Below are positions 32,029 through 40,319 of a DNA stretch of 42,749 nt, piece after piece. The DNA is from a virus. The stretch covers positions 1 to 42,749 of IMG/VR virus record IMGVR_UViG_3300043783_000042, one strand, 5' to 3'. A program made the position numbers and the translations under genes. Below the pieces are notes generated by a model. The model was not told the origin of the DNA, did not search any database, and saw nothing but the letters and a program-made list of their open reading frames with translations. How positions within the stretch are numbered: position 1 is the stretch's first letter; the number at the start of each line of letters is the position of its first letter.

Positions 32029-32135
32029 TTGCGCCACCGTTTGAATAGGGCTTCGCCAACCGTCAGTATCGTGGATATGATGGCGGCAAACAGGACGATC
32101 CAGACCCAGCAGAGTGCGGCGCCCCAGTCTATCAT
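32025..32135 (-). CDS. Single-pass membrane protein, 36 residues
   Basis: The larger frame over these bases is a shadow of the ejection-protein gene; the real start is the ATG at 32135 in an ATGA overlap. MIDWGAALCWVWIVLFAAII is almost all hydrophobic, with STILTVGEALFKRWRK forming a basic inner tail. Typical of tiny phage membrane proteins. Confidence 0.6.
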   Translation of the reverse strand: MIDWGAALCWVWIVLFAAIISTILTVGEALFKRWRK

Positions 32136-35100
32136 CGGGTCGGCACCGTCTGCCGGAGGTAAGGAACACCTACCTTCAACTCGTCCAACACCGTCTTCGG
32201 CTTGCGTTTGACAGGCTGCCCATTCTTCTTGTCCAGGTAAGCGGCCATCTGCTGAGAGACGCCGGGAACGAGCATTCCACGCGTGTAAGAGCCGATGGCG
32301 TGCTGCGCTCGCTGCTGGCCCTCCATACCCTCCGCCCCCGTGGATATGTCCTCCATGCCCGGCACTTCCTGCGCTACACCGCGTCCGGTCTGATAGACCG
32401 CTTGCCACGGCGAGCCTTTGCCTCCCCGCTCGCCGTGTTCAAGGCCGTTACGGAAGGTGGCCCACGCACTCGCGGCATTCCACACCGGCGCGTGAGAGAG
32501 GACTGGAGGCAGCTTATGGCCGAATATCTCGATCTCGCCAGGCTTCATCGGCTTGCCGTCCGATCCGATCACCGGTTTGACCTTGTTGGGCGCGTAGTAG
32601 CCGGCCACCTTGAAGCCCTTCGGTTGGGCAAGGCCGATGTAGGCGGTAACAGCACCTAGCCCACCGTATTTGAAGGCGCGTATGATGTCGTCGGCAACCG
32701 CCGGTGTAAGCGTCTCCTTGCCGAGCGCCACGCGGCCCGTCTTATACGCGCCTTCGAGGACGCCATAGCCGGTCATTCGTATGCTCTTGCCGAGGAAGTT
32801 AGCCCCGAACCGGCCGAATGGCACTAGGCTCTTGAAGATGCCGCCGACGATCTGGTAGCCCATCTTCTTGTCGCCGCGCGTCCAGGCGTCGGCAGCAGCC
32901 GTCATTCGCTTGCTGAAGGTGTTCTCGGTACGCAGCATGGCATTCTGGGCATCTATGGCGGATTTGGTGGATATGTCCATCGCGACCTGCGCGTTGTCGA
33001 GTTGCTTACCCTGGGCGACGGCGCGCTCCGCTCGAATGACCTGCGACCGCTCGTATTCGGGCAGGCCGATCCCCATCATCTTCTCCGCGCCGTGTATGCG
33101 GCCGGGGAGGCCGATCAGGGTTCCGTCTCCGTGCGTCTGGCCGCCCGAAAGCGCGGTGATCTCGCTCCCGACACCACGTATCTCCGCAAGCGCGGCCTGA
33201 ATACCCTTGCCTCGCATCGTCGCTTTGATCGCGGCTGTCAGGCCCTTACCAGGAGTGAACCCTTCCCGTTCGGCTACGGATGCAAGAGCCTGGCCCCGCA
33301 CCCTAATCTTCCCCGCGGCGTAGCCGAACGGCTCAGACGCCAATTCGGTAGGATGGTGCCAGAAGGAAGCGCCGAACAGCTTCTCGATAACAGCAGGCCC
33401 GGTCAGTTTGGCCGCACGTGCATAGTCTATGAATTTATCGAGCGCCGTTCTTGGCTCGTTGCCGCGCAGCGCCCTGTCTCGCAGGATGCGCGTATTCTGG
33501 ACCGCCGCCTTGAGCTTGATCGCCTCCGCATCGAGTTGGAGCGGATTCTTAGGCGTCTTAGGAGGAGCCTTGACTCCGGTGCGTATCTCCTCGTTGTACT
33601 GGTTCATACGGTCGAGCAGGTGCGCCTTATACGCTTCCAGCGGGTTCTTGCTGCCGGACGATGCCTTGCGGAGATCGGCAAGTCGATCGCGCAACGCCTC
33701 CTGCTGGAGCTTCAACTTGCCTAGTTCAACCGACCACGGCGAGGTCTTCGGGCCACGAGGCGCAATATCTCCGGCCTTGATCCGGGCCGACAGTTCGGAG
33801 ATCGACTTCTTAGTGGAGGCGACAGCCGCGTCGAGCTTCGCCTGATTCAGGTCGCCTTCGTGCAGCTTGTTATACTCGGCGAGCTTAGCGTCACGCCGCG
33901 CATTGAGCGCGGCCGCTTCGGCGTCATACTGAAGTTGTGTCTGGCGCGGCTTCTTCTGGCCGGTCTTAATGAGCTTATCGAGGTCTTCAATCTCGTTCTT
34001 GAGGCGGCTCTTGACGGCATCCAGCGAGGACTTCATCTTAGCCGCAACGTCCTCTTTGGTAACGGGGAATCCCGCCTCTTTGATCGCGGCCTTGACCTGC
34101 TTGGTCAGATCGCGCACCTCTGCGGTTGCCGCGTCGCGCTGCGGACCGGACTTGAGCGGCCGGACTTTCGCCTTGGCGTCCTCAAGCGCCGACGTGAGCC
34201 GCATCTGCGCTTTCGTTTCACGCAGGCGTGTCGCCACTGCTTCCGGGTTCGGCGTGGCGACCTTACCGTACATGCTGATGAGGTCGCGCGTTTCACGCGG
34301 GCTTATGTCCTCGAAATGCTCCTTGAGCTTCGTCCACGTCTCCGTGACGATCTGCTCGATAGGCATTTTGATGTTGCGCTCGACGAGCAGCTTCGCGTAG
34401 CGGCCAGCCCACTGGGCCACCTCGCCCAACGTAGCTTCGTCGAACCGGCCGCCGGTCGGGTCCCAGCCCATTTGAGCGCGCCCGCCCCGCTTCTGGAACC
34501 TCTGCGCTATATCCGCGATCTCGGCGTCCAGGTCGGCTTTTCGGGCGGCTCGATTCGTGGCTCGCGCCTCACGGCCGGCGTCTCTCTTGAGGGCGCGTCC
34601 CGCTCGTTCGGCTTCGAGCGTCTCGATGCGCTCCTGTAGTCGCGCCTGCTCCGCTTCGTGACCGGCCAGATGCGAATTCAGGTCCTCAACCGCTTTCTGG
34701 TGATCGGAAACGACCTGCTGAAGGCGGGCAACCTCTGAATTGGGGTCGGCGGGATCGCCGGAAGGCTCGCGGCCGTGGTTGACCTTGAACGTCTGGCGCG
34801 CCTTGACAAACGAGTTGTCCTCGGCGTTGGCGAGCATGGTTCGGGCGTAGAACGCACCCGACTGCTCGGTTCCCGCGAAGGTCAAGGCGTGGTCTACGAT
34901 GTCGCGCTGTTGAGCGATGTCGGAGAGTTTCTGGCGGGCGTGGGCCTCACCCTCGGCATTACCGGCATCTCTGGCCGCTAATGCCTCCTTCTCCGCAACA
35001 TCCTCGCGCTGATTCAAGCGGACGCGCTGAGAGGAGAGCGCGCCTGTTTCGTGCGCCTCCAACTGACGAGGGTTCTCCGCAACGCGCATGGCGAGCGCCA

Positions 35101-36217
35101 TCGCGTCTTCTTCCGGCACCTGCTGGCCGGCCTCGAACCCTTCACGCGGAGAGGAACGCCGATACTTGGAGATCGGGTCCATGCCGCGCGCCGCACGTTC
35201 CGCCTCCGTGATCTTGTTCCGTGGCCCCGTTACCCGGCCGCTGCCGCCGGCTTCTTCTTGCGGCGCATCTGGTGTATCAGGTCCTTCAGGCCCGGCCCCT
35301 TCTTGGGCGCGCGCTCCGGCAGGCTCTTGCCCTTGCGCTCCTGCTCCCACTCCTTGACCTTCGCGTCCCCCAACGCCCTCCGGCCCGCTGGGGTGTGCGC
35401 CCACCGGAACTGCGCTTCGCTGAGTGGCATCTGTCATCTCCTCTACCGGCGGTCGAATAGTGAACTCGCGGGCGGCCTTCAGGCGCTCCACCTCAGCTGC
35501 GGCCGGCAGCATAGCCTCCGCACCGGAAGCGATCAGGGCGGGTATCCCGATACCCAATCCCTGCTCGGCGGTCATAGGAGCGCCCTTGTTCTCGGCGATC
35601 TGCTGCGTGGCGCCGGCCGCAAGCATCGAAGGCGCTATCAGCGGACCGGCCGTACCGCGCACGGCTTCGGCCACACCGGGCGCAATAGCATTAGGCGGCC
35701 CAAGCGCTGCCATCAGCATGACATTGTTCATGTCGCCGAGACTGGCTATGGCGCCGAACACCTCACGCGCCGGACCTTTCATCTTAGCGGCAGCACGCTT
35801 CAGCGGGAACAACGGATTGCGCACTTCCTCCGATGCCTGATAACCGGGCCGGTCCATGATGGAGGGTTCGCGAGGCTCGGCGGTATCGGCGAGCTGCTGG
35901 ATTTGCGCATTCCCTACTGCTCGTGCAGCTGCACGACGCAGCGGGGCCTTCTGCTGGTACGTGGCGGGCTTCAGAGTGGCACGGTCTACGATCTGCCCCT
36001 CGCCGATACCTGTAACACGAGAACGTAGAGGCGTCGCGTTCCCTACTCCGGGGATTGGAGGCTCGAACGCCGTCTTGGCGACCTTGGGAGCAGCCTTAGA
36101 GGAAGACGTCAGGGCGCGCTCGGCGTCCTCGAAGTCCTGTTTGGTGGGAGGTTTCTGGAACCGGATGCGCTGTGGCTTGCCGCCGATATTGACCTCGTAG
36201 GTGTAGCCATCGGGCAT
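32132..36217 (-). CDS. Giant internal virion (ejection-type) protein
   Basis: 1361 residues. N-terminus MPDGYTYEVNIGGKPQRIRF, then hydrophobic Ala/Gly-rich helices (VMLMAALGPPNAIAPGVAEA), a Pro/Gly/Glu linker (residues near 280-340), very long charged coiled coils (EVARLQQVVSDHQKAVEDLN, LQERIETLEAERAGRALK and many more), then a C-terminal region with membrane-active segments (SFWHHPTELASEPFGYAAGK, VGGIFKSLVPFGRFGANFL) and a final KTVLDELKVGVPYLRQTVPT. This matches large podovirus ejection proteins, which cross the envelope with the DNA. Part of the pattern also occurs in large polyvalent phage proteins. Confidence 0.7.
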   Translation of the reverse strand: MPDGYTYEVNIGGKPQRIRFQKPPTKQDFEDAERALTSSSKAAPKVAKTAFEPPIPGVGNATPLRSRVTGIGEGQIVDRATLKPATYQQKAPLRRAAARAVGNAQIQQLADTAEPREPSIMDRPGYQASEEVRNPLFPLKRAAAKMKGPAREVFGAIASLGDMNNVMLMAALGPPNAIAPGVAEAVRGTAGPLIAPSMLAAGATQQIAENKGAPMTAEQGLGIGIPALIASGAEAMLPAAAEVERLKAAREFTIRPPVEEMTDATQRSAVPVGAHPSGPEGVGGREGQGVGAGAQGQEPAGARAQEGAGPEGPDTPDAPQEEAGGSGRVTGPRNKITEAERAARGMDPISKYRRSSPREGFEAGQQVPEEDAMALAMRVAENPRQLEAHETGALSSQRVRLNQREDVAEKEALAARDAGNAEGEAHARQKLSDIAQQRDIVDHALTFAGTEQSGAFYARTMLANAEDNSFVKARQTFKVNHGREPSGDPADPNSEVARLQQVVSDHQKAVEDLNSHLAGHEAEQARLQERIETLEAERAGRALKRDAGREARATNRAARKADLDAEIADIAQRFQKRGGRAQMGWDPTGGRFDEATLGEVAQWAGRYAKLLVERNIKMPIEQIVTETWTKLKEHFEDISPRETRDLISMYGKVATPNPEAVATRLRETKAQMRLTSALEDAKAKVRPLKSGPQRDAATAEVRDLTKQVKAAIKEAGFPVTKEDVAAKMKSSLDAVKSRLKNEIEDLDKLIKTGQKKPRQTQLQYDAEAAALNARRDAKLAEYNKLHEGDLNQAKLDAAVASTKKSISELSARIKAGDIAPRGPKTSPWSVELGKLKLQQEALRDRLADLRKASSGSKNPLEAYKAHLLDRMNQYNEEIRTGVKAPPKTPKNPLQLDAEAIKLKAAVQNTRILRDRALRGNEPRTALDKFIDYARAAKLTGPAVIEKLFGASFWHHPTELASEPFGYAAGKIRVRGQALASVAEREGFTPGKGLTAAIKATMRGKGIQAALAEIRGVGSEITALSGGQTHGDGTLIGLPGRIHGAEKMMGIGLPEYERSQVIRAERAVAQGKQLDNAQVAMDISTKSAIDAQNAMLRTENTFSKRMTAAADAWTRGDKKMGYQIVGGIFKSLVPFGRFGANFLGKSIRMTGYGVLEGAYKTGRVALGKETLTPAVADDIIRAFKYGGLGAVTAYIGLAQPKGFKVAGYYAPNKVKPVIGSDGKPMKPGEIEIFGHKLPPVLSHAPVWNAASAWATFRNGLEHGERGGKGSPWQAVYQTGRGVAQEVPGMEDISTGAEGMEGQQRAQHAIGSYTRGMLVPGVSQQMAAYLDKKNGQPVKRKPKTVLDELKVGVPYLRQTVPTR

Positions 36218-39286: not shown

Positions 39287-39315
39287 TTGACAGACTGACT
39301 GAAAGTCCCTATACT
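39287..39315 (+). promoter_or_regulatory. Strong sigma70 promoter for the plus-strand cluster
   Basis: TTGACA (39287-39292), a 17-nt spacer, TATACT (39310-39315, 5 of 6). It drives the genes from 39469 and the CRISPR-like unit. Confidence 0.8.
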
Positions 39316-39360: not shown

Positions 39361-39382
39361 GGCGAGAGTATTCCGCGGCGCC
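39361..39382. repeat. 22-bp direct repeat, copy 1
   Basis: Starts GGCGAGAGTATTCC and ends GCGGCGCC; exact copy at 39774-39795. This copy lies in the untranslated leader of the plus-strand cluster. Confidence 0.85.
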
Positions 39383-39468: not shown

Positions 39469-39759
39469 ATGCCGAAAACCATCCGCGTGAACGAGGTTAG
39501 TTCCAGCCGCCGTCATGGCGTAATCGTCTACCTATCGGGCAGGCGCCTGTTCCGGACCGATTTCTACTCGCCCGGCTTCTCATCACAGGGCGCGTGTCAG
39601 CAGGCCGAGCGCACGGTGATCGATATGCTGGTTGAGCTCGGCGTAGGCGACGAGAACCGGAATCTCGTAGTTCAGGGTTTCTACCCGAACACCCACAATC
39701 GTCCGTACCTGCTGGCCGAGTTCCTGCAGCAGCCTGATCTGTCAGCCATATTCGTTTGA
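39469..39759 (+). CDS. Hypothetical protein, first gene of the plus-strand cluster
   Basis: 96 residues, strong AGGAGGAG SD. Beta-rich start (KTIRVNEVSSSRRHGVIVYL), an RLFRTDFYSPGFSSQGACQQ segment, then a helix QAERTVIDMLVELGVG and NLVVQGFYPNT. No family recognised. Flanked by both copies of the 22-bp direct repeat. Confidence 0.7.
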   Translation: MPKTIRVNEVSSSRRHGVIVYLSGRRLFRTDFYSPGFSSQGACQQAERTVIDMLVELGVGDENRNLVVQGFYPNTHNRPYLLAEFLQQPDLSAIFV

Positions 39760-39773
39760 ATCCCCGCGTAGGC

Positions 39774-39795
39774 GGCGAGAGTATTCCGCGGCGCC
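39774..39795. repeat. 22-bp direct repeat, copy 2, next to the CRISPR-like repeat
   Basis: Exact copy of 39361-39382, 15 bp after the stop of the flanked gene, ending where the first CRISPR-like repeat begins. Together the copies bracket the gene at 39469-39759. Confidence 0.85.
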
Positions 39796-39882
39796 TTCCC
39801 CACGCACGTGGGGGTGGACCATGTTCAAGCGCCGTACGCACGAAGATGAAACCAACTTCCCCACGCATGTGGGGGCATAGCC
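39793..39882 (+). CRISPR. Two-repeat CRISPR-like unit, type I-E period, no cas genes
   Basis: Repeat 1 (about 39793-39821) and repeat 2 (about 39854-39882) share the core CTTCCCCACGCA(C/T)GTGGGG. Core starts are at 39795 and 39856, exactly 61 bp apart, which is 29-bp repeat plus 32-bp spacer as in type I-E arrays. Each core makes the CCCCAC/GTGGGG hairpin of type I-E repeats. Repeat 2 is degenerate at its 3' end, like a terminal repeat. The spacer begins TGTTCAAGCGCC. No cas gene is in the window, so host Cas6/Cascade would be needed. Confidence 0.6.
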
Positions 39883-39885
39883 AAA

Positions 39886-40044
39886 ATGACCGATGCACTC
39901 AAACACTGCCCAAAATGCGCTCTCGACAAACCCGAGGACGCATTTTGGCGCGACGGCAACAGAGCTGCAGCGGGCATAGGAGAGGATGGAGAGGGATGGC
40001 AACACGCATTGAGAGAATCAGCGCCCGAGACAGTGACGCCATAG
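39886..40044 (+). CDS. Possible small zinc-knuckle ORF, 52 residues
   Basis: ATG at 39886, right after repeat 2, without a clear SD. MTDALKHCPKCALDKPEDAF looks like the N-terminal knuckle of endonuclease-VII/HNH-type phage proteins (C..C...kp...F), followed by WRDGNRAAAG and no further motif. It overlaps the next gene by 49 nt in another frame. May be a truncated nuclease remnant. Confidence 0.35.
   Translation: MTDALKHCPKCALDKPEDAFWRDGNRAAAGIGEDGEGWQHALRESAPETVTP
39910..39948. repeat. 10-bp inverted repeat with inner stem
   Basis: CCAAAATGCG (39910-39919) and CGCATTTTGG (39939-39948) with an inner CTCG/CGAG. Lies inside the small zinc-knuckle ORF; could be a strong RNA hairpin, terminator or operator downstream of the CRISPR-like unit. 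Confidence 0.7.
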
Positions 40045-40319
40045 GCCACTGTCTCGACTTCAAACTCACATTTGAGGCCGCTTCGATGAGCGGACGCCCA
40101 GAACGGCAGCCAGACGACACCATGCAGTACGTCGTGCGCAGCTACAACAAGCCGATTGCATGGCTTGATGGCGGAACGTGGTACATCGCCACACAGAAGC
40201 ATAGCAAGACGACTACCGCCCATCAGTCAGCGGTCAAACGGGCGCTCATTGACCACTGCGCAGTCCCGACGCCGGTACACGACTACCATACCTGGCGGAA
40301 GCAAGCAGTGCCGGCGTAA
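39996..40319 (+). CDS. Hypothetical protein, 107 residues
   Basis: Start at the ATG at 39996 behind GGAGAGG; the in-frame extension to 39756 only translates the CRISPR-like repeats. Contains RIERISARDSDAIGHCLDF, YVVRSYNKPIAWLDGGTWYI and ATQKHSKTTTAHQSAVKRAL, an alpha/beta pattern. The core recalls small phage proteins of the YxxRSYxxPIA type. Function unknown. Confidence 0.65.
   Translation: MATRIERISARDSDAIGHCLDFKLTFEAASMSGRPERQPDDTMQYVVRSYNKPIAWLDGGTWYIATQKHSKTTTAHQSAVKRALIDHCAVPTPVHDYHTWRKQAVPA

Follow-up and report, generated by a model that had tools for sequence, protein, structure and literature searches.

Our analysis of a 42,749-nucleotide stretch of viral DNA, an IMG/VR virus record that we refer to as the window, revealed a unit of two repeats around a single spacer whose assignment as a type I-E CRISPR repeat-spacer-repeat holds on the sequence evidence. 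As to its function, we lean slightly beyond even confidence towards a one-spacer mini-array that was captured from a bacterial array, and whose transcript would be cut by the Cas6e of the host and loaded as a crRNA onto host Cascade, to act there as a guide or as a decoy.

Results

The features of the unit and of its surroundings are listed in Table 1. In an earlier note on this DNA, two copies of a 19-mer had been described exactly 61 bp apart. Both were found as described, CTTCCCCACGCACGTGGGG at 39795-39813 and CTTCCCCACGCATGTGGGG at 39856-39874, with a start-to-start distance of 61. With up to three mismatches allowed, 0.03 occurrences of the 19-mer are expected per window by chance, and two copies were seen in none of the shuffles. 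The proposed 29+32 architecture was likewise recovered, since in full register the unit consists of 29-nt repeats and a 32-nt spacer with a period of 61, and the inner CCCCAC/GTGGGG hairpin claimed for each copy is present with the stems of both hairpins intact. In repeat 1 the hairpin reads CCCCAC-GCAC-GTGGGG, and the 8-nt 5' handle is GUGGACCA. The second copy is indeed degenerate at its 3' end: repeat 2 is identical to repeat 1 at 17 of 18 core positions, in contrast to only three of the last eight. No leader was recognisable at the unit, and Rfam gave no match. When the 90-nt unit was folded, a long duplex between repeat 1 and repeat 2 was preferred (z -3.5); in this model the duplex could compete with the single hairpins and reduce processing.

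Table 1. Coordinates of the repeat-spacer-repeat unit and neighbouring features in the window
Feature	Position	Strand	Remarks
Promoter, sigma-70-like, TTGACA-17-TATACT	39287..39315	+	Consensus match only, 11/12
22-nt exact direct repeat GGCGAGAGTATTCCGCGGCGCC	39361-39382 and 39774..39795	+	Copies 413 bp apart
96-aa orphan ORF	39469..39759	+	Upstream of unit; good ribosome-binding site
CRISPR repeat 1 GCCTTCCCCACGCACGTGGGGGTGGACCA	39793..39821	+	Near-complete type I-E repeat, 26/29 against chromosomal repeats
Spacer TGTTCAAGCGCCGTACGCACGAAGATGAAACC	39822..39853	+	Single, 32 nt; protospacer search without match
CRISPR repeat 2 AACTTCCCCACGCATGTGGGGGCATAGCC	39854..39882	+	Hairpin retained; final 7-8 nt degenerate (CATAGCC)
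52-aa possible ORF	39886..40044	+	CPKC zinc-ribbon-like start; no strong ribosome-binding site
Stem-loop, strong	39910..39948	+	16-bp arms, 88%; no T-run; within 52-aa ORF, downstream of repeat 2
107-aa ORF	39996..40319	+	Next well-supported downstream gene; weak matches to phage families of unknown function

The repeats were compared with those of cellular arrays. Repeat 1 agreed at 26 of 29 positions both with a Chloroflexi repeat (GTATTCCCCACGCACGTGGGGGTGGACCG) and with a proteobacterial repeat (GCCTTCCCCACGCATGTGGGGGTGAACCG), and repeat 2 at 20 and 22 of 29 positions, respectively. The null for this score was built from 300 first-order Markov windows, whose best scores against the Chloroflexi repeat were 17-23, and the score of repeat 1 lies above this maximum. 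A 25-nt core (TTCCCCACGCAYGTGGGGGTGGACC) was found verbatim in seven genome contigs, which belong to MAGs named Chloroflexi, Anaerolineales, Armatimonadetes, Zipacnadia, WS1 and Dehalococcoidia and to one proteobacterium. Six of the seven are arrays with a 61-62-bp period, and the seventh (L020) is a single repeat. A Cas6e gene was found in four of these seven genomes; that of the proteobacterium lies on the 9.4-kb contig of the array itself. On plasmids of Enterobacter and Klebsiella, arrays with a closely similar repeat (GTCTTCCCCACGCACGTGGGGGTGTTTC) adjoin annotated I-E cas operons. The MAG and plasmid arrays share with our unit the repeat sequence, the 61-bp period and the 32-nt spacers; however, they are mostly long and several have cas genes, whereas the phage unit has two repeats and none were found. 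The cellular repeats matching at 26/29 occur across several phyla. The earlier claim of a type I-E unit is thus upheld, and the comparison with cellular arrays that had been proposed for it gave chromosomal matches together with Cas6e.

The unit shares its strand with the early operon and the promoter-like sequence and occupies the 126-nt intergenic gap between the end of the 96-aa ORF (39759) and the next possible start (39886), which is that of the 52-aa ORF, 4 nt past repeat 2. It had been described as standing behind a strong early promoter. The promoter-like sequence was confirmed, but it lies about 480 nt upstream with the 96-aa ORF in between, so that the unit is inside the operon and not directly behind the promoter. 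No homologue of the 96-aa ORF was found, and its predicted fold (pLDDT 51) was too poor to search folds with; we consider it a candidate acr-like neighbour. This ORF is bracketed by the two copies of the 22-nt direct repeat, one within the operon's 5' leader and the other touching repeat 1, which may represent a recombination or acquisition scar or a shared RNA element.

Cas6e was absent from the window by HMM, and no cas match appeared in 19 PADLOC protein scans, which covered a subset of the window ORFs. These results agree with the description of a phage without cas genes, as given by a record that may be incomplete or a fragment. Searches of the viral contigs via ORF1, a 226-aa protein, the terminase and the portal returned no relatives of the phage. 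Against phage records, the terminase reached about 22-30% identity at most among the matches listed, and the capsid-like protein gave no match. With respect to the host, the spacers of the matching cellular arrays matched the window over no more than 14 contiguous nt among the matches listed, and the repeat pattern was found in only three of 779 genomes from two phyla, two of them previously known, which indicated no host. Elsewhere in the window, a 1361-aa virion-like protein (32132-36217, - strand) gave a weak PADLOC match to LmuB (E 2.6e-5), probably a coiled-coil similarity, and opposite this ORF a tRNA-Lys (CTT) was predicted on the + strand at 34550-34627, possibly falsely.

The comparison of the spacer with phage genomes, also proposed in the earlier note, gave no match. 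Exact or near protospacers, the only kinds that the searches covered, were found neither in IMG/VR (searched with a pattern of 20 specified positions) nor in phage records or the window itself. The best seed match of the spacer in the window was 9 nt, a length equalled by 78% of shuffled spacers and hence at chance level. A self- or promoter-targeting guide was rejected, since seed matches were at chance in the window and near the promoter.

Two-repeat units of this kind were also found in other viral contigs. A scan with the 19-mer returned 11 stretches, several of which are short arrays whose terminal repeat has kept its hairpin intact and lost its 3' end. In the contig L021, a perfect repeat whose handle is likewise GTGGACC is followed by a 32-nt spacer, a degenerate second repeat and a terminator-like hairpin. 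With a broader pattern, at least 26 non-redundant two-repeat units were kept among the matches listed, that of the window included. Because TTCCCC and GGGG were prescribed for each repeat by this pattern, which also constrained the spacing, the inner stem pairs alone are informative, and the spacing across units is not independent evidence. In every one of the 26 units among the matches listed, the pairs of the inner stem are kept in repeat 1 as well as in repeat 2, with compensatory A-T/G-C exchanges in three of them (L021, L059 and L070). At the final five handle positions, identity across the 26 units was about 46-62% per position. Maintained hairpins and decaying 3' handles in the second repeats fit selection for a processed crRNA, as far as can be judged from sequence comparison. 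In ordinary arrays the terminal repeats likewise decay at the 3' end, so that handle loss by itself proves nothing, and some of the two-repeat contigs may be pieces of chromosomes that were filed as viral by mistake. For these reasons the pattern of the class supports crRNA selection and does not prove it.

Several of these loci deserve separate description. When the 26 spacers of the class were compared with phage records, only one of them matched, the hits being Propionibacterium phages apparently identical with loci L074, L087 and L098. These cultured P. freudenreichii phages (L156, Propionibacterium phage Anatole, at 2501-2532, together with L074, L087 and L098) carry a spacer that belongs to an I-E-like two-repeat unit; the stretch is annotated, on the opposite strand, as hypothetical protein 26. 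L059 and L070, two related viral contigs, have repeat 1 and the first 17 spacer nt in common and differ in the remaining spacer and in repeat 2, the hairpin of which is retained; the conserved seed half suggests either a partial guide that is functional or a site of recombination. The viral contigs L004, L009, L011 and L013 have a short array in common. Its spacer is almost the same in all four, its last repeat is degenerate, and a terminator-like hairpin comes next, a pattern that suggests vertical inheritance more than turnover of spacers. Finally, the spacer of L076 has a 13-nt seed match in its own contig (reverse-strand position 2214), a length reached in none of 100 shuffles, although this was only one of 26 such tests.

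Discussion

In type I-E systems, Cas6e cuts 3' of each repeat hairpin. We infer that a mini-array with one spacer was taken from a bacterial array into the phage, where it would be transcribed within the early operon. Cutting by host Cas6e at the 3' base of both hairpins would then yield one crRNA-like RNA, composed of the 8-nt handle GUGGACCA from repeat 1, the 32-nt spacer and, from repeat 2, 21 nt that include the hairpin. This RNA would load onto host Cas5e, Cas7e and Cas6e and so withdraw Cascade from the host's own guides. As a consequence, Cascade might be aimed at another genetic element, which would amount to superinfection exclusion, or it might merely be occupied. Since nothing lies downstream of repeat 2, this repeat would have no need of a handle, which would explain why its hairpin was kept and its end lost.

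Mini-arrays without cas genes were found in the archaeal viruses SPV1 and SPV2, where they are connected with interviral conflict (PMC6858448), and phage mini-arrays are cited in passages of the same paper and of a review (PMC11656645). Virus-borne mini-arrays of this type have one or two spacers, host-type repeats and an intergenic position, and no cas genes. Our unit resembles them in its one spacer, its intergenic position and the lack of any cas gene found in the virus record, and no leader is recognisable in it, as is the case for phage mini-arrays. In contrast to the known examples, its second repeat is degenerate, and no protospacer was found for it, whereas the spacers of virus-borne mini-arrays often match related viruses.

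A possible but doubtful alternative is a Racr-like decoy, in which host Cas6e and Cas7e would be trapped by the repeats in dead-end complexes, whatever the sequence of the spacer. Inhibition has been proven for two I-E Racrs, RacrIE1 and RacrIE2, and racr genes are found clustered with acr genes (PMC10651486). What they share with our unit is the mimicry of an I-E repeat, an intergenic position in a phage, the absence of cas genes and the presence of small unknown genes alongside, and both the location in an early operon made up of small orphan genes and the spacer searches without a match speak for this explanation. However, published Racrs are solitary, whereas our unit has kept a second hairpin and the spacing of a crRNA, and the compensatory upkeep of second-repeat hairpins across the class would be needless for a single-repeat decoy. 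In SRUFinder, a second repeat within 100 bp defines an array or mini-array, which is excluded from the solitary Racr set (PMC10651486). With a second repeat 61 bp downstream, our unit is a mini-array by this published definition and not a solitary Racr.

It is unlikely that the unit is a non-functional relic or passenger, that is, a fragment of a host array gained by recombination, perhaps through the 22-nt repeat (39361/39774), and now decaying. The exact 22-nt duplication adjoining repeat 1, the degenerate repeat 2, the lack of a recognisable leader and the target searches without a match would all suit a relic; yet both hairpin stems are intact, the spacing is exact, and the unit sits between genes in a compact early operon and follows a plan that recurs in other viral contigs.

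We consider it quite improbable that the unit encodes a viral equivalent of CreR, a phage crRNA whose guide redirects host I-E Cascade to one particular gene of phage or host, which is thereby repressed or cut; repeat 2 would then have been pared down to the Cas6e hairpin alone, which would hinder loss by recombination or spacer acquisition. Very unlikely, too, is a CreR/CreA-like guide whose spacer is partly complementary to a phage or host promoter, so that Cascade represses that gene. CreA and CreR are ectopic repeat RNAs, and in cellular genomes ectopic degenerate two-repeat units act in this way (PMC9458426, PMC12737573). They have in common with our unit two repeats, at least one of them degenerate, around a single guide, and the first 17 spacer nt conserved in L059 and L070, with the rest differing, would fit such a guide. 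Nevertheless, CreA and CreR reside in cellular genomes beside cas genes or toxins, and a partial target lies close to them, whereas no such target was found for our unit. Partial complementarity to a nearby promoter with a PAM, which characterizes them, was not seen, no seed in the window or near the promoter exceeding chance, and CreTA has repeat 1 more diverged, whereas in our unit it is repeat 2. Explanations other than CRISPR, namely a palindromic operator pair, translation-control hairpins or a 19-aa peptide (MFKRRTHEDETNFPTHVGA, 39821-39880), are strongly disfavoured and scarcely credible: the hairpin is palindromic, and GGGGGTGG stands directly before the ATG at 39821 with an open frame, but the likeness to I-E repeats (26/29) reaches the non-palindromic CTT and GTGGACC, and the window has no other intact palindrome of such kind and near matches at chance number only, so that the operator pair was rejected for want of further sites.

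In summary, mini-arrays without cas genes in viruses and anti-CRISPR RNAs that mimic repeats have already been described, and the one-spacer mini-array presented here is therefore a further example of a described kind. It suggests that this phage borrows or jams the CRISPR machinery of its host, a trick known from other viruses. The plan common to our unit and its parallels, with a complete repeat 1, a 32-nt spacer and a hairpin-only repeat 2, makes guide and decoy models separable for I-E phage mini-arrays, and the cultured Propionibacterium phages that carry a two-repeat unit could serve as a test bed.
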